Origin: Gluconobacter thailandicus F149-1 = NBRC 100600
GTDB taxonomy: Bacteria; Pseudomonadota; Alphaproteobacteria; Acetobacterales; Acetobacteraceae
Length of the DNA stretch: 64,000 nucleotides
Direction: 5' to 3'
NCBI RefSeq assembly: GCF_000964465.1
Contig: NZ_BANH01000021.1
Coordinates: 1-64,000, forward strand
Shown here: one piece after another, positions 17,125-27,492 of the stretch
Numbering within the stretch: the first letter of the stretch is position 1
How the letters are laid out: every line of letters starts with the position of its first letter
Made by a program: the position numbers and the translations under genes
Notes under the pieces: generated by a model
What the model saw: only the letters and a program-made list of their open reading frames with translations
Told to the model about the DNA's origin: nothing
The model's database searches: none

Positions 17125-18486
17125 TTATGTGGGTCCGTTCAAACGCTGGATGCGCATAGCCTCTTTGCGGTGCGCTCCAAGAATGTCTCCAAGATTTTTC
17201 AAAACGGGTTGGCCGTTTTCCACCAGGATTTGGCCGTTGACGATAGTTGTTCCTGCTGTTGCAGGAGCGCAGCGAAGCCATGCTTCCACCGGGTCTGTCA
17301 GCGCGCCAGCGAGGGATATCTCCGACATTTGCCAGATAACCAGATCGGCACATGCCCCAGGTCTCAGGTGCCCGATTTCATCGTCCCAGCCCAGGCAGGC
17401 CGCTCCACCCCGTGTCGCCATATCCAACGCGTCCCGAGCCGTCATCGAGTGAGGGCCATTGCGGAACCGTCCCAGTAGGAGCGCCATGCGGGTCTCCAGC
17501 CAGAGCGATGCATGATCGGTGGAGGCCGATCCGTCACAGCCAAGTCCAACCCGCATGCCTCTGCGGCGCATGTCCATGGCATCAGCAGAGCCACCCCCGA
17601 TCATCATGTTCGAGCACGGACATTGCGCCGTACAGACACCAGCATGCGCGAGGCGATCGATCTCATCGGTTGACGGGTAGATGTAATGGGCAACCCAGGA
17701 ACGCGGACTGGCCCAACCCACGCGCTCGAAATATTCCGTCGGGGTGCACCCATAAACGTCCGCGCAGTAGCGATCTTCGTCGTGATCTTCCGCCAGATGA
17801 GTATGGAGGCGCAGGTCATACCGGTCCGCCATGGCCGCAGACTCCGTCATGATCCGTTCAGAGACACTGAAGAGCGAGCAGGGTGCGAGAGCAACGCGGC
17901 CCATCGCACCGGGAGAGGCGTCGTGATACGCGTGCACCAGGCGTTCACTGTCCGCGAGGATGGTGTCTTCATCCTGCACCACCGACGCAGGTGGTAGGCC
18001 GCCATCCTCAACAGAACGCGTCATGGAACCACGCGTCGCATGGAAGCGGAACCCGATGTCTTTCGCCGCACGGAACTGCGCATCAATCAGGAACGGCTTA
18101 GGATGGACGTACATATGATCCATCGACGTCGTGCAACCACCCATGAGAAGCTCGACCATGGCCACGGCAGTTGAAAGATAAACGGACTCTTCATCAAGCC
18201 CCGCCCAGAGCGGATATAGCCCTTGCAGCCACTCGAACAGCGTTCCGTTCGTAACGGGCGCATAAGCGCGGGTCAGGTTCTGGTACATGTGATGATGGGC
18301 GTTGATGAGACCCGGAGTTACCAGCTTTCCATCGGCTGAGAGTGTTTTTTCAGCCGGCGGCGGTATTTCGCCAGAATGTCCCACGGAATGAACACGACCA
18401 TCCTTCAGGGCAATCCATCCGTTTGGGATTTCCCAGTCTCGATCAATGTACAGATAGGCGTTTGTAATAAGGAGGCTGACCGTCAT
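17125..18486 (-). CDS. 8-oxoguanine deaminase (amidohydrolase superfamily)
   Basis: A 453-residue cytosolic zinc amidohydrolase that deaminates 8-oxoguanine to urate. The start at 18486 has AAAGGA 7 bases upstream; the longer frame to 18531 has none. Metal and family signatures: PGLINAHHHMYQNLTRAYAP (His64-66), the conserved LFEWLQGLYPLWAGLDEE region, the second histidine site in LRLHTHLAEDHDED, the WVAHYIYPS helix, and the metal Asp in GLGCDGSASTDHASLW. These match the 8-oxoguanine deaminase group (Pseudomonas Pa0142-like) better than chlorohydrolases AtzB/TrzN. It lies 151 bases after the CDA-fold deaminase in a purine catabolism cluster, which supports the assignment. Confidence 0.85.
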   Translation of the reverse strand: MTVSLLITNAYLYIDRDWEIPNGWIALKDGRVHSVGHSGEIPPPAEKTLSADGKLVTPGLINAHHHMYQNLTRAYAPVTNGTLFEWLQGLYPLWAGLDEESVYLSTAVAMVELLMGGCTTSMDHMYVHPKPFLIDAQFRAAKDIGFRFHATRGSMTRSVEDGGLPPASVVQDEDTILADSERLVHAYHDASPGAMGRVALAPCSLFSVSERIMTESAAMADRYDLRLHTHLAEDHDEDRYCADVYGCTPTEYFERVGWASPRSWVAHYIYPSTDEIDRLAHAGVCTAQCPCSNMMIGGGSADAMDMRRRGMRVGLGCDGSASTDHASLWLETRMALLLGRFRNGPHSMTARDALDMATRGGAACLGWDDEIGHLRPGACADLVIWQMSEISLAGALTDPVEAWLRCAPATAGTTIVNGQILVENGQPVLKNLGDILGAHRKEAMRIQRLNGPT

Positions 18487-18637
18487 TGCGGCGTCCTTTC
18501 CCGATACCATCAGCAAGCCATGACGGATCATGGCTTTCGCAGAAGGCCCTGTTCCGAAGGTGCGAATTCCGGATCGTCATCAAGCTGGTCTTGAACGGGC
18601 GAGGAGGTGTCAGCCTAGCATCAGGATTGAGGGGCTG

Positions 18638-19132
18638 TCACGCCGTATGGGCGTTCCAGAATTCTGCCTGCAGGGCAGCAGCTTCGTCTTCCAGAAGAGG
18701 GCCGACAACCTCGACGTTCTGCTGTCCGGCTTCGAAAACCGTTCGACAGGGCAGATCAAACGTCGGATTTTCCGCGTGATTACCTGTCATGTCTTTGAGG
18801 CTTTTCTCGGACTGGCCATACACCACGCGCCCAATGCCAGACCAGTAAATAGCGCCAGAACACATCGCGCAGGGCTCGGCAGAGCTGTAGAGCGTGCAAC
18901 TTCTTAGCCGGTCTACGCCGTATGCGCGGCTAGCCCGACTGGCGAGGAGGCGTTCGGCATGAGCCGTCATGTCACAGCCCTCAGCGCTATATCCGTTGCC
19001 CTGTTCCATCAGGACCGTGCCGTCTGCGTCCACAAGGATGGAACCAAACGGGTGGTCACCTTTTTCACGCGATTTACGCGCAACATCAAAGGACATGCGG
19101 AGAAAACGGAGATCATCAGTGTCTGTCAGCAT
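18638..19132 (-). CDS. CDA-fold nucleobase/nucleoside deaminase (guanine deaminase-like)
   Basis: A 164-residue zinc deaminase of the cytidine/deoxycytidylate deaminase fold. The start at 19132 overlaps the stop of the upstream guanine deaminase gene (ATGCTGA). The zinc site is His58-Ala-Glu60 (TAHAERLL) and Cys88/Cys91 (EPCAMCSGAIYWSGIGRVVYG). The GAIYW stretch resembles Bacillus-type guanine deaminase GuaD and TadA relatives. Its position between guanine deaminase and 8-oxoguanine deaminase points to a purine base substrate. Two structurally unrelated guanine-type deaminases side by side is unusual, so this one may act on another aminopurine or on a nucleoside. Confidence 0.8.
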   Translation of the reverse strand: MLTDTDDLRFLRMSFDVARKSREKGDHPFGSILVDADGTVLMEQGNGYSAEGCDMTAHAERLLASRASRAYGVDRLRSCTLYSSAEPCAMCSGAIYWSGIGRVVYGQSEKSLKDMTGNHAENPTFDLPCRTVFEAGQQNVEVVGPLLEDEAAALQAEFWNAHTA

Positions 19133-20475
19133 GGGGGAGACGCCTTTTCCTTGATTTGACGGCCATTGACCCAGACACGGCCAATGGTCTGTGATGATGC
19201 GTGGCAAACGATTTTCTGTGCACAGGTAGCGGCATCGTCTTTCGGACGCAGTCGCAGAGCGCCAGACGTTCCCAGAATTTCTACGGCGTCGAACTTCTGC
19301 CCTGACATGAGTTGTCCGGCAGAAATCCCCAGGGCTTCGGCCCCTCCGCGTGTGGCAAGCCAGAAGGCTTCCTGAAAGTCGATCCGACTTTTGGGCAACC
19401 CACGCTCTGAGGCGGGAATATGGGGATTTGTGCCGCTTTCCAGCAGACGGGAGGTCAGAACTGCCTGTCGGGCATTTTCAAAAATCGACGGTGAGTAACC
19501 GCCGGAAATATCGGTGCCCAGTCCGCAATGGACATGCTCGTCCAGAACATGCCGGAGAGGGAGAGCGGCTCCCGCAAAAAACGCATTGGAAATAGGGCAG
19601 TGTGCCAGCGCAGCATTGCGGTTTCCAACAAGCGCCCGGTCGGTCTGATCCAGAAAACCTGCGTGAGCAAGAACCGTATGAGCGCGCAGCAGACCAAAGC
19701 GGTCCAGCGCGCGGGTGTCCGTCTGGCCTGTGCGATCCAGAACATGCTGGTGTTCCCAGTCACTTTCAGACGCATGGGTTTGAACCCGAACGTTCAGTTC
19801 GGCGGCCAGTGCTCCCAGTCCTTCCAGGAGGGCGTCAGAACACGCAGGGATAAACCGGGGAGTAATGACCGGCTGAACAAGGCCATGTTCGTTACCCGGA
19901 AGAGCGCGAACAGAGCCAATGAACCGACGCGTTACATCCAGAGCGTCTTGGGCGCTGACCTGCCGGTAATCCGGCGGGCAAAGGTCCGGGTGATCCATGG
20001 CCACCAAGCCGACAAACCCGCGTTGTCCATAGCGAAGGCAGGTTCGGGCCAGAACGAGACTGGCCTCTTCATGGATTGTCGCGAAATAAAGAGCCGTTGT
20101 GGTGCCATTTTCCAGCAGGGTACGGACAAGATCGTCATAGACACCTTCCGCAAATGCAGGATCAGCGTAGCGGGCTTCCAGCGGGAAGGTATAGGTGCCG
20201 AGCCAGTCTTCAAGCGGTCGGTCCAGCGCCATGCCAGCCTGTGGCCATTGTGGTGCGTGAATATGCAGGTCGGTCAGGCCGGGGATCAGAAGTGTTTCAT
20301 CGGATAGCCGGACTGCGTTCCTGTGCGCAGAGAGAGCGTCATAGCGTTCTGTACCTAGCGAGTGGCGTTCCTGAATGACGCCTTCTGCATCGACCAGAAA
20401 AGCTACGTTTTCGAGGAGAGTGGTCTGGGGCGTTTCCGATGTCAGAACCCGTGCGAGAATGATCGTCTCGGTCAC
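19126..20475 (-). CDS. guaD: Guanine deaminase (amidohydrolase superfamily)
   Basis: A 449-residue cytosolic zinc enzyme converting guanine to xanthine and ammonia. Family signature PGLTDLHIHAPQWPQAG contains the first metal pair (His71, His73). Further sites are VQTHASESDWE, TVLAHAGFLD and LGTDISGGYSPSIFENAR with the metal Asp. Length matches other bacterial GuaD enzymes. GTG start at 20475 overlaps the stop of the Rieske catalytic subunit gene (GTGA), implying translational coupling. The downstream overlap with the CDA-fold deaminase makes the three genes one operon. Confidence 0.88.
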   Translation of the reverse strand: MTETIILARVLTSETPQTTLLENVAFLVDAEGVIQERHSLGTERYDALSAHRNAVRLSDETLLIPGLTDLHIHAPQWPQAGMALDRPLEDWLGTYTFPLEARYADPAFAEGVYDDLVRTLLENGTTTALYFATIHEEASLVLARTCLRYGQRGFVGLVAMDHPDLCPPDYRQVSAQDALDVTRRFIGSVRALPGNEHGLVQPVITPRFIPACSDALLEGLGALAAELNVRVQTHASESDWEHQHVLDRTGQTDTRALDRFGLLRAHTVLAHAGFLDQTDRALVGNRNAALAHCPISNAFFAGAALPLRHVLDEHVHCGLGTDISGGYSPSIFENARQAVLTSRLLESGTNPHIPASERGLPKSRIDFQEAFWLATRGGAEALGISAGQLMSGQKFDAVEILGTSGALRLRPKDDAATCAQKIVCHASSQTIGRVWVNGRQIKEKASPPC

Positions 20476-21311
20476 GCGAGCACACCGTAGGTCACGCCTT
20501 TTCCCTTCAGCCAGCGCCGATAGGCCACTGAGGATCGATCTGCCATGGTCGGGATCTCGTACTTGCCATCCAGAGGCATCAGGCGGGGACGCTGGTTCTC
20601 AAGAATGATCCTGTCCTGCAGGAAGATGAACTGCTGGAACTCCACCAGTCCTTCAAGAGGTGAGGTCTCATCGATCAGGAACATGACGGGATGGGCCCGT
20701 GAGCGTGTGGGCGTCATGGGCTGGACGAAGAGAGCAATCACGTCCTGCCGTTCAGGAGATGCGGGACAGGTCTTGTAGAGAAGTGTCGAGAAGGGCGCCG
20801 CAACCCGGTAGGTATAATCGGTGAGAATACCACCAGAAGCCGAAAGGGCGGCCTGCGGCTGAAAAAATGTACAGTCTGTTACCCATATTTCTTCGCCGTC
20901 TTCACGGGTTTCAATCTGATATCGCCGAACCTCGGTTTCCGGCTCGGCCCCCAGAATATTGGTATGAACAAACGGAAAATGCGCCATGTCCAGAAAGTTC
21001 TCAACGACCCGGAGGCCAGACGAGTGAACGGCAATGGACCCACAGCCGACCAGTCTTCGATCCGGCTCTTCCGCTTCAGGGATAGACGGAATATCGCGCA
21101 CCGGCTCTCCCAGAGATGTCCAGAGATAACCGTAGCGTTCCCGGACGGGCAGGGAGCGGTTTCCGCAAAGAACCTGAAGAGCGCCCTTATCGTCTCGTGA
21201 GACGTCGATAAGCCTATCCAGCAGCATCGTCTGGAAATGCGGTTCGGTCAGATCTTCCACCATGGCGAGCGGATACCATTGTGATAACGTCTCCGGATCA
21301 ACGGTGCTCAT
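20472..21311 (-). CDS. Rieske oxygenase catalytic subunit lacking its iron-sulphur domain
   Basis: A 279-residue protein with the C-terminal catalytic domain of ring-hydroxylating/O-demethylating (VanA-like) Rieske oxygenases. The mononuclear iron motif is intact: VVENFLDMAHFPFVH with Asp108, His111 and His116. The N-terminal part keeps the outer strands of a Rieske domain (QWYPLAMVEDL at 11-21 and RERYGYLWTSLG at 57-68). The middle with the two Cys-x-His/Cys-x2-His ligand pairs is missing. A separate Rieske protein is encoded divergently at 21664-22275, so electrons are presumably delivered in trans. It heads the operon with guanine deaminase. The likely substrate is a purine (xanthine, hypoxanthine or urate), by analogy with HpxD of Klebsiella; that is inference. 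No dedicated reductase gene was seen. Confidence 0.8.
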   Translation of the reverse strand: MSTVDPETLSQWYPLAMVEDLTEPHFQTMLLDRLIDVSRDDKGALQVLCGNRSLPVRERYGYLWTSLGEPVRDIPSIPEAEEPDRRLVGCGSIAVHSSGLRVVENFLDMAHFPFVHTNILGAEPETEVRRYQIETREDGEEIWVTDCTFFQPQAALSASGGILTDYTYRVAAPFSTLLYKTCPASPERQDVIALFVQPMTPTRSRAHPVMFLIDETSPLEGLVEFQQFIFLQDRIILENQRPRLMPLDGKYEIPTMADRSSVAYRRWLKGKGVTYGVLA

Positions 21312-21375
21312 GGCGCATGGACCTGCTGCTGGTGGCGGTTGACCGTGAGTTAATCATGACATCTGGTGCGGGTGG

Positions 21376-21410
21376 AATAAGGAATATTGATAAAACGGAA
21401 AATTCTTATT
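21376..21410. promoter_or_regulatory. Inverted repeat in the divergent purine promoter region
   Basis: AATAAGGAAT (21376-21385) and AATTCTTATT (21401-21410) are imperfect inverted repeats with a 15-base spacer in the 128-base divergent intergenic region. The site could be the operator of a purine-responsive regulator serving both arms. No regulator gene lies within the cluster. Confidence 0.25.
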
Positions 21411-21439
21411 GTGAAATGAGATAAGGAGGGCATGATTAT

Positions 21440-21667
21440 ATGGTCCGGGAGATTCGTCTCACAGGGTATTTTGATCCTGAGGCGCTGCAGGCCTTTGCAA
21501 TGGCCCGAGCAAAGCTTCTGGCCGTGGAGATTACAGAGATGTCCGTTTCACAGTCCTGTTTCGAAGCCCGGATCGTCGGGGAAGAAGCCCTGCTCGGCAT
21601 GTTTGAAATGTCATGTCTTCTGGGTCCCGCAGGCTGTATCGTGACTGGTGCGGAAGATATCACGTGA
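21440..21667 (+). CDS. Small acylphosphatase-like protein of the purine cluster
   Basis: A 75-residue protein with the length and beta-alpha-beta-beta-alpha-beta pattern of the acylphosphatase fold (strand REIRLTG, helix PEALQAFAMARAKLL, strands VEITEMSVS and CFEARIVG, helix EEALLGMFEMSCLLGPAG, strand CIVTG). The catalytic Arg of acylphosphatases (usually in G-V-x-F-R) is not evident, so it may be a binding or assembly factor rather than an enzyme. A strong ribosome-binding site (AAGGAGGG, 21423-21430) lies 9 bases before the ATG, and the stop overlaps the Rieske gene start (GTGA). It is the first gene of the plus-strand purine operon. Confidence 0.6.
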   Translation: MVREIRLTGYFDPEALQAFAMARAKLLAVEITEMSVSQSCFEARIVGEEALLGMFEMSCLLGPAGCIVTGAEDIT

Positions 21668-22275
21668 CAAACTGGTTTCCTCTCGCGCTGGGGATGGATG
21701 TCCCGCCAGGAACTGCGGCACCAGCCCGTTTATGCGGGAAGGAAATAGCCCTTTGGCGCGGGGCAGACGGGCAAATTCATGCCTGGGAGGACCGCTGCCC
21801 CCATCGAGGCATGCGATTGAGCTTCGGGTTTGTACGGAACGGCAATCTGGCGTGTCTGTATCACGGTTGGCAGTTCGGCGCAGACGCGACCTGCCGTCAT
21901 ATTCCCGCTCATCCTGAGTTACGCGTACCGGGAACAATCCATGCTCATGCGTATCAGGCGGCGGAGCGGGCCGGAATAATCTGGGTTTCCCTGAATGAAC
22001 AGGCCAGTGCGGACGAACTGCCAAATATGGATGCGTTTGGCGCGAGAAGTATCCTGATTCGAGCGCCTCTGGCCTCAGTGCGTACTGCCTTGGCACTTCC
22101 TGATGAGGGATGGGGCTGGCAGGAAGAGTGCCTCGTAGCGGTTCATGAACCCGAACCCGGTCTGACAATGCTGCATATGGCGGCCGCAACGCTGGCCAGA
22201 AGACTGGATGTTGCAGACAGAGCCAAAATGACAAGAGATCGTCTCGAAGCACTCAACGAAAAGGTTTCTGCATGA
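21664..22275 (+). CDS. Stand-alone Rieske [2Fe-2S] protein
   Basis: A 203-residue protein whose first ~110 residues form a complete Rieske domain of the oxygenase type: RCPHRGMRLSFG (Cys45, His47) and CLYHGWQF (Cys64, His67), then RAGIIWVSL. The C-terminal ~90 residues (LNEQASADEL...ALNEKVSA) match no domain I know and contain no iron-binding His/Asp motif. It lacks the catalytic domain, which is encoded by the divergent gene 20472-21311. The two likely form one oxygenase. GTG start at 21664 with GGAAGA about 7 bases upstream; the ATG at 21613 lies inside the preceding gene and is rejected. The stop overlaps the next gene (ATGA). Confidence 0.82.
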   Translation: MTNWFPLALGMDVPPGTAAPARLCGKEIALWRGADGQIHAWEDRCPHRGMRLSFGFVRNGNLACLYHGWQFGADATCRHIPAHPELRVPGTIHAHAYQAAERAGIIWVSLNEQASADELPNMDAFGARSILIRAPLASVRTALALPDEGWGWQEECLVAVHEPEPGLTMLHMAAATLARRLDVADRAKMTRDRLEALNEKVSA

Positions 22276-22832
22276 GGCTGCGAGACTGGGCGCTTGATGA
22301 CCGATGCTATGCCGTCAGGCTGGGCGCGTCCCTGATGGGCGTGAATCTTCCAACCCTCACAGACGCTACCGCCTTGAAAACCGGCCCGGCACTTGAGATT
22401 GATGGAGGTATCCTTCATGGCCCCGCTGATATCCTGCAAAGACTGACCAGTCTGCCTGAAGTCTCTCGCGAGTGGCATCTTGGTATCGGGGAAGAGAGGC
22501 GGGACGCCTGGGCCGAAAGTGCACTGGAACGGTTTTCGCATCTCCGTCAGACGGCACTTTTGGCTGGGTTACCAACGGAGGGTATTCCTCCCCAGGCTTT
22601 CGATCTAATGACGGAGATAGAGGACCGTCTCTCAGACGACCGTCTCCGTGAGCGGCCGTGGGTTTCTGGAAGTCATCCCGGAGTGGCTGATATTCTGCTG
22701 TTCCCGATCGCAGCTTTAAGTCAGGATCTCGAAGTGCCACTGGATCTCTATCCAGCGATCCGAAACTTCATCCGGCAGTTCAAAGCGCTACCCGGATTCA
22801 TGACGATGCCAGGAGTGCCGGAATGTCATTAA
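22272..22832 (+). CDS. Glutathione S-transferase-like protein
   Basis: A 186-residue protein with a recognisable GST C-terminal all-helical domain, including the capping motif in HPGVADILLFPIAALSQD and the LYPAIRNFIRQFKALPGF end. The N-terminal thioredoxin-like half is divergent (MRLRDWALDDRCYAVRLGASLMGVNLP) and lacks a clear catalytic Ser/Cys/Tyr. It retains the cis-Pro/Glu-Ser-like region as GGILHGPADIL. It sits between the Rieske gene and the transporter with stop/start overlaps on both sides, so it belongs to the purine pathway. A glutathione-dependent step or a non-enzymatic partner role are both possible. Confidence 0.65.
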   Translation: MRLRDWALDDRCYAVRLGASLMGVNLPTLTDATALKTGPALEIDGGILHGPADILQRLTSLPEVSREWHLGIGEERRDAWAESALERFSHLRQTALLAGLPTEGIPPQAFDLMTEIEDRLSDDRLRERPWVSGSHPGVADILLFPIAALSQDLEVPLDLYPAIRNFIRQFKALPGFMTMPGVPECH

Positions 22833-23932
22833 AAAACCTGACACGTCTTCCCCGGCGCAGAGCATTGGCCGCTCTCGGAAGTTCACTGCTGCTGCCATCC
22901 GTTCTCAAGGCTAAGGCTGCCGAACGCCGTTTCGCACCCATTCGGGAAGAAGATCTTCTGGTTGGCTTCGGGCACACCAGCCCTATCACGGACGGAGGCT
23001 GGAGTTACGCGCATAATCAGGGCGTTGAAGCCATGAAGCGCGCTTATCCGGCCGTAAAGACGCTGTTTGTCGAAAGCGTCCCGTATTCTGCGGATGCGAC
23101 GCGCATCTTTCGCCAGTTCGTGGCGGAAGGGGCTCAGATGGTCATCTCCACATCGAATTATGGTGATTTCATCAAGGACGTTGCCGACCGGGCGCCCAAT
23201 GTCGCGTTCATGGAATGTGACGGACATACGGTCAGCAACAATCTCGGCTGGTATTACATCACGCACTGGTATGCGAGTTACGTAATCGGAATTGCGGCAG
23301 CACGTCTGAGCAAGACAGGGAAACTGGGCTATGTGGCATCGTTCCCGGTACCATCCGTTTATGCGAGCGCCAATGCCGTTCTTCTGGGGGCCAGATCGGT
23401 CAATCCGAACGCGACGATGCGCGTGATTTCCATCAACTCCTGGTTTGACCCGCAGGCCGCAACCGAGGCTGGCGCTGCTCTTGTGGACAGCGGATGTGAT
23501 TTCCTGTGCGGCATTATGGATGATCCGGGTTATCTGCGCGTGGCGGAAAAGCGCGGTGTCTGGGCTGCAATGTGGAACACCGACATGCGGGAGTTCGGGC
23601 CAAATGCCTATGTCAGTTCCGTCACGCTCGATTTTGCTGATTTCTATATCCAGCAGGTGGGCGCACGCATCCGGGGTGAATGGGCGCCGGAAGGCCGTTT
23701 TCTAACACTGGGCAAAGGTGTTGACCGCGATCCCTGGGGCCAGAATGTGCCGGAGGCGGTGCAAAAGGAAGCTGATGCAGCCAGAGACAGGATGCTCGCC
23801 GGATGGTCGCCGTTTCAAGGGCCGATTTATGATTCAGACGGTAAGCTCCGCGTTCCAGCGGGTCATGTCATGACAGACGCTGAGATGTTTGGCTGGAGCT
23901 GGCAGGTGCAGGGAGTATCTGGCCTTGGCTGA
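22823..23932 (+). CDS. BMP-family ABC transporter substrate-binding protein
   Basis: A 369-residue periplasmic binding protein of the BMP/Med family, which binds nucleosides or purine bases. The N-terminus LPRRRALAALGSSLLLPSVLKAKA is a twin-arginine signal; export through Tat is unusual for this family. Conserved blocks: VGFGHTSPITDGGWSYAHNQG, DATRIFRQFVAEGAQMVISTS, and GYVASFPVPSVYASANAVLLGA, with IMDDPG and WNTDMREFGP later in the pocket. GGAG precedes the ATG at 22823. It heads the transporter portion of the operon with the ATPase and two permeases behind. Given the neighbouring deaminases, the ligand is probably a purine base or nucleoside. Confidence 0.88.
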   Translation: MSLKNLTRLPRRRALAALGSSLLLPSVLKAKAAERRFAPIREEDLLVGFGHTSPITDGGWSYAHNQGVEAMKRAYPAVKTLFVESVPYSADATRIFRQFVAEGAQMVISTSNYGDFIKDVADRAPNVAFMECDGHTVSNNLGWYYITHWYASYVIGIAAARLSKTGKLGYVASFPVPSVYASANAVLLGARSVNPNATMRVISINSWFDPQAATEAGAALVDSGCDFLCGIMDDPGYLRVAEKRGVWAAMWNTDMREFGPNAYVSSVTLDFADFYIQQVGARIRGEWAPEGRFLTLGKGVDRDPWGQNVPEAVQKEADAARDRMLAGWSPFQGPIYDSDGKLRVPAGHVMTDAEMFGWSWQVQGVSGLG

Positions 23933-25511
23933 CGTCACACATACGCCCAACGCTCCGCCGCGCCATCTTCCCGCCGGAACACCTCCCATTCTGGAACTGG
24001 TGAACATCGCGAAGTACTTTCCGGGTGTCATTGCCAACGAGCATGTTTCCCTGAATGTCTTCCCCGGTGAAATTCACGCACTCCTGGGGGAGAACGGGGC
24101 AGGAAAATCCACTTTGATGAACGTTGTCACGGGTCTGTATCAGCCAGATGCCGGTGAAATCATTATTGATGGATATGGCACCACATTTCCGGCACCGGAT
24201 GCAGCCATAGCGGCGGGGATCGGAATGGTGCACCAGCATTTTCGGCTGGTGCCGCGCTTTACCGTGGCGGAAAATCTGCACCTTGGCTGGTCAGAGACCC
24301 CCAGACGTCTTTCGGCAAAAGATATTGAAGCGAGGGCAAAAGAGCTTTCCGCCAGGTTTGGACTGCCCGTGCGCCCGTCTGCTATTGTTTCTTCACTGTC
24401 GGCCGGTGAGCAGCAACGGGTCGAGATTTTGCGCGTTCTTTCTCGTGGTGCACGGCTGCTCATTCTGGATGAACCCACAGCAGTTCTCAGCCCGGTCGAG
24501 GTCGGCGAGCTGTTTTCGGCCCTGCGTCGGTTTCGGTCTGAAGGTGGGGCGGTCATCATCATCAGCCATAAGCTGGACGAGATCATGGCTTTGGCAGACC
24601 GGGTCTCCGTTCTGCGTCAGGGGCGTCTGGTTGGGACCCATCAGGTGGCCGACGTCACGCCCGACAGCCTAGTGACAGAAATGATAGGACGTCCTGTTGC
24701 TCTTGCCACGTCATATCCGCGTCAGGGTCCCGTACCGGCGGTTGAAGAGGCAGAACCGCTTTCCCTTCAACAAGTCACTGTCCGCGATAGTGCGGGGGTG
24801 GTTCGTCTTGATAACATCAGTCTTTCCCTCCGCCCCGGTGAGATCCTCGGAATTGCGGGTGTCACAGGAAACGGTCAGCCTGAACTGGCAGAGGTTCTGA
24901 CCGGTCTGAAAGAACCCGAAAGTGGAACCGTCTTTCTGAACGGCAAGGCTGTAAACCGCGCGGACCCGGCCATGTTTGCTCATGCCGGGGTCGGGCATGT
25001 GCCTGAAGACCGGCTCAAACGTGCTTTAATGCCGGGTTTGAGTGTCGCGGAAAATATGGCCTTACGGGAATATGACCGTCCTCCCATTGGCGGAAAATTC
25101 AGCTTTTCCATGCCGCAGGCCCGGAAATTCGCGCAGATGCTGGCCGACAGGGCAGGTGTCAAACTACCTGGAACGCAGGTTCAGATCCGAGGACTGTCCG
25201 GTGGCAATCAGCAACGATTGGTTCTGGAGCGGGAAATCCGGATTGCAAGCCATGTTCTGGTTGCGAGTTACCCAAGCCGTGGCCTGGATATCGGCGCAAT
25301 ATCCGCCATGCGGGACATGCTTGCCCGCGCAAGGGACGCCGGGGTTGCTGTTGTTCTCATGTCCGAAGATCTGGACGAAATTTTTGCTCTCAGCGATCGA
25401 ATTGCCGTCCTGTATGCGGGGCGTCTCATGGGGGTCATGACGCGTGCGGAAGCAGACAGGGATAGCATTGGGGCTCTCATGAGTGGTCGTAGCCTATCGG
25501 AGGCAGCATGA
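23925..25511 (+). CDS. Purine/nucleoside ABC transporter ATP-binding protein (tandem ATPase)
   Basis: A cytosolic ATPase subunit of the YufO/NupA type with two fused nucleotide-binding domains. The first has an intact Walker A (GENGAGKST), signature (LSAGEQQRVEI) and Walker B (LLILDEPTA). The second has a degenerate Walker A (GVTGNGQPE), signature LSGGNQQRLVL and a Walker B lacking the usual Asp-Glu (LVASYPSRGLD), as in ribose/nucleoside importers. TTG at 23925 is chosen because GGGAG lies 9 bases before it and it overlaps the previous stop (TTGGCTGA). The alternative ATG at 23889 lies within the binding-protein gene without an RBS. The stop overlaps the first permease (ATGA). Confidence 0.85.
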   Translation: MADVTHTPNAPPRHLPAGTPPILELVNIAKYFPGVIANEHVSLNVFPGEIHALLGENGAGKSTLMNVVTGLYQPDAGEIIIDGYGTTFPAPDAAIAAGIGMVHQHFRLVPRFTVAENLHLGWSETPRRLSAKDIEARAKELSARFGLPVRPSAIVSSLSAGEQQRVEILRVLSRGARLLILDEPTAVLSPVEVGELFSALRRFRSEGGAVIIISHKLDEIMALADRVSVLRQGRLVGTHQVADVTPDSLVTEMIGRPVALATSYPRQGPVPAVEEAEPLSLQQVTVRDSAGVVRLDNISLSLRPGEILGIAGVTGNGQPELAEVLTGLKEPESGTVFLNGKAVNRADPAMFAHAGVGHVPEDRLKRALMPGLSVAENMALREYDRPPIGGKFSFSMPQARKFAQMLADRAGVKLPGTQVQIRGLSGGNQQRLVLEREIRIASHVLVASYPSRGLDIGAISAMRDMLARARDAGVAVVLMSEDLDEIFALSDRIAVLYAGRLMGVMTRAEADRDSIGALMSGRSLSEAA

Positions 25512-26554
25512 GCGCTGTATCGCATCGCACCCGTCTGACGGTTGTTCCCTCTTATCGCATCGCTATAGGACGGGGTTTATCCATCCTCGCAGCTCTCAGC
25601 ATCGTCGCCATAACTCTGGCTGCCATGGGGCGCTCTCCCATCGAGCTTGCCGGACTAGTGGTTCGCTCTACGGTGGGATCCCGGTTCGGGATTGAAGATC
25701 TGGCCCTGTTCATGACTCCACTGATGCTCACTGGCGCGGCAGTCTGGGTCGGTATCCGCGTCAATTTGTGGAATATTGGTGCGGAAGGGCAGCTCTATGC
25801 CGGCGCGACTGCCGCCACGGCGATCGGGCTGTTTACACACTGGCCTGCATTCGTTGCGCTGCCTGCCATGATTGTCGCGGGCATGCTTGCTGGCGCGGCC
25901 TGGATCTTCGTGCCGGCCGCGGCACGGGCATGGTTGAGCGTCAGCGAGATCGTCACGTCGCTTCTGCTCAATTTTGTGGCCTCTTTGCTGGTCTATTATC
26001 TTGCAACGGGACCTTGGGCCGATCGTGTAACGGGGGCTTTGGCCTCCACCGAGCGTCTGCATATGGCTTTCCCGGAATTCTGGGGCGCCGTCCACCTCGG
26101 TTTCATTCTGGCGCTCGCAACAGTTATCGGTCTGGGGGTTGGCCTGGCCAAGAGCCGCTTTGGATACGAAACAGCAGTGTGTGGCTCAAACCCGCAGGCT
26201 GCGCATTATGCCGGAATTGGCGTTGCGCCCCGCATCCTGGCTGTTCTGCTGCTGTCGGGCGCACTGGCCGGGTTGGCGGGTGTCTTTGAGGTGGCAGGGA
26301 CCGTTCACCGGCTTCAGGGGGGCCTCGCCAACAACTATGGCTATCTGGGTATCGTGGTTGCGCTTCTCGCCCGCGGATCGTGCCTTGCGCTGATCCCGGC
26401 GGCTCTTCTGATGGCGTTGATCCTTGATACCGGGATCGTTCTGCAGACCACCCAGATCAGTTCCTCGGCTGTTCTGGCCATCACCGGCCTCCTTGTTCTC
26501 GCCATCGCGGCGGGAGACGAACTGGCGGCCTATGTCCGCGTGAACAGGACCTGA
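25508..26554 (+). CDS. Purine/nucleoside ABC transporter permease 1
   Basis: A 348-residue inner-membrane permease of the YufP/NupB (branched-chain amino acid/sugar-like) family with about nine hydrophobic helices. Family-typical motifs: WNIGAEGQLYAGA in the cytoplasmic loop contacting the ATPase, SEIVTSLLLNF, and AHYAGIGVAPRILAVLLLSGALAGLAGVFEV. It follows the ATPase by stop/start overlap and is 2 bases from the second permease. It forms the translocation path together with that protein. Confidence 0.88.
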   Translation: MSAVSHRTRLTVVPSYRIAIGRGLSILAALSIVAITLAAMGRSPIELAGLVVRSTVGSRFGIEDLALFMTPLMLTGAAVWVGIRVNLWNIGAEGQLYAGATAATAIGLFTHWPAFVALPAMIVAGMLAGAAWIFVPAAARAWLSVSEIVTSLLLNFVASLLVYYLATGPWADRVTGALASTERLHMAFPEFWGAVHLGFILALATVIGLGVGLAKSRFGYETAVCGSNPQAAHYAGIGVAPRILAVLLLSGALAGLAGVFEVAGTVHRLQGGLANNYGYLGIVVALLARGSCLALIPAALLMALILDTGIVLQTTQISSSAVLAITGLLVLAIAAGDELAAYVRVNRT

Positions 26555-26556
26555 CC

Positions 26557-27492
26557 ATGGCACTTCTCAGCGATCTTCTTGGACATGCAGTGCTTTCTGG
26601 TAGCGTTCTGGCGCTTGGTGCCTTGGGCGAGGTGATCGCCGAACGGGCTGGCGTTCTTGATCTCGGCGTCGAAGGACTCATGTCTCTCGGCGCGGTTGTC
26701 GCAGTCATGACGGTGACAGCGACGCCTCATCCATGGCTGGGACTGTTGGCTGCCGGGCTGGTGGGTGGCCTTGGGGCGGGTGTGCTGGCCCTTTCCAGCG
26801 TGGTGCTTCGCGCCAATCAGGTTCTGTGTGGTGTTGCCATTACTTTCCTGGGGCTTGGTCTGAGTTCCGTCATCGGGCGATCTGTCGCGGGTATTCCGAT
26901 TTCCGCCGTTTTTGAACCGGTTTCCATTCCGGTTCTGTCCTCTATTCCCGTTATCGGACCTGCATTTTTCAGCCAGAATGTGCTCGTTTATCTGATCTAT
27001 CTGGTCTTGCCGGCTCTGGTGCATTTCTGGATGTTCCGCACACGTTCAGGCCTGGATCTGCGTGCTGTGGGCGAAAACCCGGCCGCCGCGGACGCTGTCG
27101 GTGTACCTGTCATGAGACTGAGGGCGCTGGCTGTCATTCTGGGGGGTGTTCTGGCTGGTCTGGCGGGGGCTGATCTGACGCTTGCGGTTGTGCCGGTCTG
27201 GTCAGATGGCATGATTGCTGGGAGAGGGTGGATTGCAGTAGCGCTTGTCATCTTTGCAGGCTACCGTCCCGTTGTGGCTGTTCTCTCCGGTCTGCTGTTC
27301 GGGCTGGTGACCGCTGTTGGTTTCATGGGGCAGGCGAGAGGGTGGCCAATAGCTCCGGCGATCCTCAATACGCTGCCCTATCTCGGGACGGTCGCCTGCA
27401 TCATTGTGCCTATGCTTGCATTTGCGAAACTCAGATCTGCGATGGCTGCCCCGGCAGCTCTTGGAACGCCGTATTATCGTAGCGGAAGATAA
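26557..27492 (+). CDS. Purine/nucleoside ABC transporter permease 2
   Basis: A 311-residue permease of the YufQ/NupC type with about nine membrane helices. Characteristic stretches: EVIAERAGVLDLGVEGLMSLGA near the N-terminus, the ATPase-coupling LRAVGENPAAADAVGVPV, and GRGWIAVALVIFAGYRPV. It is the last gene of the plus-strand purine operon. About 110 bases follow before the antiporter, without an evident terminator hairpin. Confidence 0.88.
   Translation: MALLSDLLGHAVLSGSVLALGALGEVIAERAGVLDLGVEGLMSLGAVVAVMTVTATPHPWLGLLAAGLVGGLGAGVLALSSVVLRANQVLCGVAITFLGLGLSSVIGRSVAGIPISAVFEPVSIPVLSSIPVIGPAFFSQNVLVYLIYLVLPALVHFWMFRTRSGLDLRAVGENPAAADAVGVPVMRLRALAVILGGVLAGLAGADLTLAVVPVWSDGMIAGRGWIAVALVIFAGYRPVVAVLSGLLFGLVTAVGFMGQARGWPIAPAILNTLPYLGTVACIIVPMLAFAKLRSAMAAPAALGTPYYRSGR

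Follow-up and report, generated by a model that had tools for sequence, protein, structure and literature searches.

Can the two metal centres of a Rieske oxygenase be carried on two separate proteins encoded by divergent genes? This question is raised by a pair of genes in a 64,000 nucleotide stretch of the Gluconobacter thailandicus F149-1 = NBRC 100600 genome (contig NZ_BANH01000021.1, positions 1 to 64,000), the whole of which is referred to here as the window. One gene (20472..21311, minus strand) encodes CAT, an NdmC-like mononuclear-iron oxygenase subunit of 279 aa, and the other (21664..22275, plus strand) encodes RSK, a stand-alone Rieske protein of 203 aa. Both reading frames exist as described in an earlier reading of the DNA, the first-pass annotation. 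That annotation was mistaken in holding that both centres share one chain in known alpha subunits, NdmC/NdmD being a published exception. In NdmCDE, the 7-methylxanthine N7-demethylase of caffeine-degrading Pseudomonas putida CBB5, the catalytic subunit NdmC is without the Rieske cluster, the cluster is instead part of the reductase NdmD, and a glutathione-S-transferase-like (GST-like) protein, NdmE, is required (PMC4408171, PMC10380055). The later of these papers, a review (PMC10380055), gives NdmCDE as a 3:3:3 complex and places the cluster of NdmA/NdmB 12.1 Å from the iron of the neighbouring subunit, compared with 44.7 Å within its own subunit.

Is the Gluconobacter pair a system of this kind? 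Judged by sequence, the window encodes an Ndm-CE-like system in which the Rieske protein stands alone. Our favoured reading, to which we give an even chance, is that CAT, RSK and a neighbouring GST-like protein make up an NdmC/NdmE-type Rieske oxygenase with its [2Fe-2S] cluster on a free partner, that it acts on an N-methylated purine, and that both halves come from copies of one oxygenase. A cluster-less catalytic subunit with its Rieske domain elsewhere was already known from NdmC/NdmD. New here are the likely complementary nature of the halves, the position of the NdmD fusions inside the stand-alone RSKs in the Rieske tree, and a small gene ahead of RSK.

The catalytic subunit and the Rieske protein

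The only Pfam families matched by CAT are Rieske-oxygenase catalytic domains (VanA_C, 3.9e-19; KshA_C, barely below cut-off). Its relatives were taken as the best 80 of at least 564 confirmed, each in a stretch of up to 10 kb on each side. The mononuclear-iron motif reported earlier (Asp108, His111, His116) is intact in all 81 aligned CATs, the window and 80 relatives, as is D233, which the first-pass annotation did not name and which is likely to be the carboxylate ligand. Each of the four residues is present in 117/117 rows of an extended set. The N-terminus had been described as a Rieske remnant with the outer strands only, and this description holds: residues 1–76 can be aligned with the outer Rieske strands but lack the part that binds the cluster (hhalign E 6.7e-10, with an RSK profile including two full-length oxygenases among its rows), the remnant spanning approximately residues 9–70. 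A frameshift or assembly error behind the split is ruled out because the same cluster-less architecture is common to the 80 relatives.

CAT is 97% identical to its G. frateurii counterpart and shares 46% identity with an NdmC-like protein from a Klebsiella plasmid, where NdmC-, NdmD- and NdmE-like genes are clustered (labels assigned here from architecture). The closest solved structures by sequence are SxtT/GxtA (residues 109–333). The predicted fold of CAT (pLDDT 86.5) matches GxtA/SxtT with a TMq of 0.81–0.86.

RSK matches the Pfam Rieske domain at 4.9e-23. Its GTG start at 21664 is well supported because the GTGA overlaps the stop of a small upstream gene (21440-21667) that itself has a strong ribosome-binding site. 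Numbered from this GTG, the four Rieske ligands are C45, H47, C64 and H67 (62, 64, 81 and 84 from an upstream ATG), and all four, as first reported, are kept in 80/80 RSKs (window + 79). In an extended set of 112 rows, which includes NdmD-type rows and two full-length oxygenases, they are present in 112, 112, 111 and 112 rows, respectively. The sole RSK row with a substitution is a protein of Komagataeibacter nataicola plasmid pKNA08 (L093, 5778), in which Gly replaces the second cluster Cys.

What follows the Rieske domain in RSK? The Pfam search found no reductase domain in the 203 aa and gave no name to the residues past the Rieske domain. As for CAT, the closest solved structures by sequence are SxtT/GxtA (here residues 9–124). 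The AlphaFold2 model of RSK (mean pLDDT 94.5) continues after the Rieske domain with a strand, a helix, three strands and a long helix. In a Foldseek search with this 203-residue model, 49 of the 50 matches listed had 241–303 aligned columns, all of them to oxygenase chains of 311–425 residues. TMq against full-length oxygenases reached 0.77, which is more than the Rieske domain of approximately 115 residues alone could give. When profiles of the RSK C-terminus (110 rows) and of the CAT catalytic domain (117 rows) were compared, the score was 27.5, the maximum from 600 column shuffles being 18.4; the score is 27.8 if the two full-length oxygenases are included in the RSK set. The alignment pairs QEECLVAVHEPEPGLTMLHMAAA of RSK with QDVIALFVQPMTPTRSRAHPVMF of CAT. 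Nine NdmD rows alone scored 33.5 in the identical register. The C-terminal ~85 aa of RSK, which resemble a reduced catalytic domain, are therefore likely to be a decayed one, as far as profiles and models can tell.

The first-pass annotation proposed one enzyme divided by internal loss, with the cluster supplied in trans. A cluster-less CAT accompanied by a separate Rieske protein agrees with this. However, the pair probably did not arise by division of a single gene, because RSK has a complete Rieske domain plus a catalytic-like C-terminus and CAT has a Rieske remnant. The two are likely, although this is not proven, to be complementary copies of one full-length oxygenase that have lost opposite metal sites.

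Co-occurrence and descent of the two halves

RSK and the GST-like gene are within the stretch of 79 of the 80 relatives; in the other (L078), the contig ends near the CAT start. A draw of 398 phylum-wide genomes gave 19 with a match to CAT at 1e-40, and 15 once the four with fused oxygenases (L168–L171) are set aside. In apparently the same draw, the RSK profile matched 22 genomes, seven of them only through the Rieske part of 329–400 aa frames, which also leaves 15. The 15 genomes with a split CAT are the same 15 with an RSK- or NdmD-type chain (Fisher 1.7e-27, kinship ignored). Nine have a stand-alone RSK and six have an NdmD-type fusion (G204, G224, G248, G408, G473 and G474); the G473 match covers profile positions 3–155 only. 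The split into CAT and RSK is thus conserved across the relatives. The co-occurrence that the first-pass annotation proposed to look for is strict, and the catalytic gene is not commonly found without the Rieske gene.

In 82 other stretches, some of which are short and long versions of one place and so count it twice, an RSK accompanies 66 of 70 split CAT frames within the stretch. Three of the four that do not are from G537, which has its RSK in L153, and the fourth is from G077, where RSK is ~5 kb off. There were two further matches at contig edges (G054 C438 and G635).

Other arrangements were also seen. Sinorhizobium meliloti pSymA (L092, 8074-12334) has two tandem Rieske-less catalytic subunits with one Rieske-reductase fusion and one GST-like protein. 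In L161 (9123-12073), a catalytic gene of a split set contains an in-frame TAG and is followed by a separate reductase frame.

Did the split occur once, and did it come before or after fusion to the reductase? The catalytic tree has 63 rows: the window, 16 of the 80 genome loci, 29 frames from other stretches and 17 fused oxygenases. The Rieske tree has 57 rows, leaving out the long-branched L093 5778 and two fused rows. Near-duplicates (L088, L090, L140, L156, L158 and L164) and the short loci L096–L137 are in neither tree. The Rieske-less CATs form one clade of 46/46 rows that includes the NdmC types (support 95/95), CBB5 NdmC being represented by stand-ins encoded beside NdmD-like fusions. 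All 40 stand-alone RSKs and NdmD domains likewise form one clade in the Rieske tree (94/92, just under the program's strict mark), with eight NdmD fusions nested within the stand-alone RSKs. The sister group is the same in both trees, the four fused oxygenases L168–L171 that adjoin BMP transporters. This suggests, from the tree topologies, one split event with the reductase fusion coming later.

The L168–L171 oxygenases, which are from the same phylum but another class, resemble the window system in having BMP neighbours and in being the sister group of both halves, and guanine-deaminase-like genes are present in the same stretches. They differ in being unsplit, with Rieske and catalytic domains on a single 327–387 aa frame, and in that the small gene was not found in their stretches. 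Compared with NdmCDE, the window system has the same kind of catalytic subunit, with the iron ligands and without the cluster ligands, and CAT is in one clade with NdmC-type proteins, apart from the fused oxygenases. It also has a Rieske domain on another chain, judged here by gene content only, and a GST-like third subunit. Unlike NdmD, RSK is free-standing and is not fused to a flavin/NADH/ferredoxin reductase. Also unlike NdmCDE, the window system has the extra small gene and is located among guanine deaminases and a BMP transporter, not with NdmA/NdmB. GxtA/SxtT, the best matches in the PDB to each half, in sequence as well as in predicted fold, differ in having both metal centres on one chain, and they act in a different pathway.

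Neighbouring genes and a proposed mechanism

Two further genes of the set are likely to encode partners overlooked in the first-pass annotation. The GST-like protein (22272..22832, plus strand, 186 aa) has an ATGA overlap with RSK and a relative in 79/80 loci. It scores 24.8 bits against GST_C_2, just below the cut-off of 24.9, and is 22% identical to the Klebsiella NdmE-like protein (E 6e-13). By position and similarity it is the NdmE counterpart.

The second is the small gene upstream of RSK (21440..21667, plus strand), which encodes an acylphosphatase-like protein of 75 aa and is preceded by AAGGAGG at 21423–21429. Relatives are directly upstream of RSK on the same strand in 70/79 loci, a plain start-to-stop search having recovered 66/79, and a cut-off piece is present at the contig end of L078. 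It was also seen in the stand-alone-RSK stretches L088–L090, L093, L138, L153, L155–L158 and L160; in L161 some 7 kb separate it from RSK. Nine NdmD-type stretches, the four fused-oxygenase stretches and eight other stand-alone stretches (L139–L142, L144–L146 and L166) gave no match to it. By this distribution, the small gene belongs to only some of the stand-alone systems. Residues G9, F19, R23, A24, G47, F55, G62 and P63 are fully kept in 67/67 aligned proteins. The window protein has no Pfam hit and so does not reach the cut-off of acylphosphatase PF00708; four of five relatives match this family at 0.0004–0.11, the best at 21.2 bits and all below the cut-off of 22.5. A role as a docking or maturation helper would be a guess.

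The two divergent operons are separated by an intergenic region (21312..21439), presumably a shared promoter region. On the plus strand, the small gene, RSK, the GST-like gene and a BMP-type transporter follow each other with overlapping ends. The transporter comprises a BMP/PnrA-type substrate-binding protein (22823..23932, plus strand, 1.8e-30) and an ABC ATPase with two permeases (23889..27492, plus strand, Pfam search). On the minus strand, CAT overlaps a divergent guanine-deaminase-like amidohydrolase (19126..20475; TIGR02967 358 bits, cut-off 375.4) that is 31% identical to the canonical GuaD of its own genome. This in turn overlaps a CDA-fold nucleobase/nucleoside deaminase of uncertain start (18638..19207, minus strand, 9.2e-22), and an 8-oxoguanine-deaminase-type amidohydrolase (17125..18531, minus strand; NF006055 551.7 bits, cut-off 532) is ~100 bases further. 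The location inside a purine gene cluster, as first described, is supported by these deaminases and the BMP transporter. In Rhizobium johnstonii pRL10 and an Agrobacterium plasmid, RSK, CAT, GST, amidohydrolase and BMP transporter genes are in this order on one strand, with a small gene annotated as acylphosphatase directly upstream of RSK.

How might such a system function? We infer a complex of CAT, RSK and the GST-like protein. The RSK cluster would receive electrons from a flavin reductase whose gene lies elsewhere, and RSK would dock at the place taken in an ordinary trimeric oxygenase by the Rieske domain of the neighbouring subunit. The electron would then pass from a Rieske histidine through CAT Asp108 to the CAT iron, and the GST-like protein may hold the parts together, as has been proposed for NdmE. 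CAT and RSK would have started as two copies of one full-length oxygenase, each of which lost the opposite metal site. As for the reductase, the best matches in the window genome are on contigs C138 and C163, each of which also has another Rieske frame (438 and 442 aa). These are candidates only and nothing ties either to the CAT/RSK system. A plasmid from kombucha, K. nataicola pKNA08, has two split sets and a single VanB-type reductase encoded separately, which shows that a free reductase can accompany split sets. The run of genes concerned (L093, 3938-10489) also contains a full-length NdmA-like oxygenase and is a candidate methylxanthine-degrading island.

The substrate and alternative explanations

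The first-pass annotation suggested a purine substrate, namely xanthine, hypoxanthine or urate. The purine setting is upheld; xanthine and hypoxanthine are unlikely, as a canonical xanthine dehydrogenase (XDH) is present, and the case against urate is less clear in acetic acid bacteria. Our best reading, by analogy, is that the substrate would be an N-methylated purine, most likely 7-methylxanthine from 7-methylguanine. A second, divergent deaminase set adjoins the relative of an N7-demethylase, which points to a guanine carrying a modification; the simplest such compound is 7-methylguanine, which is released when RNA is broken down. It would be taken up by the BMP transporter and deaminated to 7-methylxanthine, the CAT/RSK system would convert this to xanthine and formaldehyde, and the xanthine would go to the XDH encoded elsewhere in the genome. 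In the literature searched, we found no paper linking Rieske oxygenases to 7-methylguanine or describing its breakdown route.

In a wider proposal, which we hold only tentatively, a widespread reductase-free four-gene oxygenase demethylates 7-methylguanine-derived purines from RNA turnover. It would have arisen by duplication and opposite metal-site loss, with NdmCDE as a later derivative in which RSK was fused to a reductase. More generally, the CAT/RSK system suggests an origin for the N7-demethylase of caffeine degraders and a possible way for bacteria living on plants and fruit to break down 7-methylguanine. It is also a natural two-protein dissection of a Rieske oxygenase, in which the cluster and the mononuclear iron can be separately prepared, mutated and mixed as a direct test of electron transfer between subunits.

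Several results weigh against our favoured reading. The CAT model has a pLDDT <50 at residues 113–123, the stretch containing ligand H116. The rmsd of the Foldseek matches to RSK is high (4.8–10 Å), the profile signal of the RSK C-terminus spans just 23 columns, and the narrow 80-row RSK set has a borderline score of 18.2, equalled in 2/200 and 1/200 shuffles. The catalytic tree scatters the partners of NdmD-type fusions over several places and does not show the order of events, so the order of fusion is taken from the Rieske tree alone. No reductase relative is present in the stretches of 80/80 loci. The purine setting is not universal, as 23/80 loci are without a BMP or deaminase relative in the stretch. 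The assumption of N7 specificity comes from NdmC by way of a stand-in homologue, and the 8-oxoguanine deaminase of the cluster would yield urate, not a methylxanthine.

Could the split oxygenase instead oxidise urate or 8-oxopurines, as the urate oxidase of acetic acid bacteria? The 8-oxoguanine deaminase in the cluster fits this proposal. So does the distribution of urate genes in 36 genomes (the window genome plus 35 from the 80 relatives): HIU hydrolase is in all of them, uricase in only 3 and PuuD (searched as PF06181) in 15, with neither in the 17 acetic acid bacteria included (HpxO was not searched for). Neither uricase nor PuuD was found in the window genome. However, 18 of the 36 genomes encode a known urate oxidase as well as the system; these are 18 of the 19 from outside the acetic acid bacteria. 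The nearest characterised kin is an N-demethylase. In addition, an unassigned flavoprotein in the urate cluster of the window genome could be its urate oxidase. We consider the urate proposal improbable. The flavoprotein, an FAD/NAD(P)-binding protein on contig C181 (L178, 4861-6312) beside HIU hydrolase, OHCU decarboxylase and allantoinase, is a candidate novel urate oxidase in its own right.

A slightly poorer prospect still is hydroxylation of an unmethylated purine, with the products of guanine deaminase converted to urate. HpxDE, the molybdenum-free xanthine hydroxylase of Klebsiella and Pantoea, is the model for this: it too is a Rieske oxygenase in purine catabolism, HpxD belongs to the wider family and is 29% identical over 79% of CAT, and a guanine-deaminase-like gene adjoins CAT. 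HpxDE differs from the CAT/RSK system, however, in having a fused alpha chain with its own reductase, and HpxD falls outside the CAT clade. The window host has a canonical XDH (contig C184, 1320 bits, cut-off 849.5), and XDH is over cut-off in 30/36 genomes with the system. Contig C181 carries a second, canonical guanine-catabolism set, with GuaD (573 bits, cut-off 375.4) and a xanthine permease in addition to the urate genes. Together, the XDH and this second set make a xanthine hydroxylase role unlikely.

Finally, it is very improbable that CAT and RSK are not partners, with CAT using another Rieske protein and RSK serving as a ferredoxin for something else: although the genome has seven Rieske domains, RSK counted, and the two genes are on opposite strands in the window and in 79/79 relatives, NdmD is a precedent, RSK, CAT and GST genes are contiguous on one strand in the Rhizobium and Agrobacterium plasmids, and the halves occur one-to-one in 15/15 genomes of the 398-genome sample.

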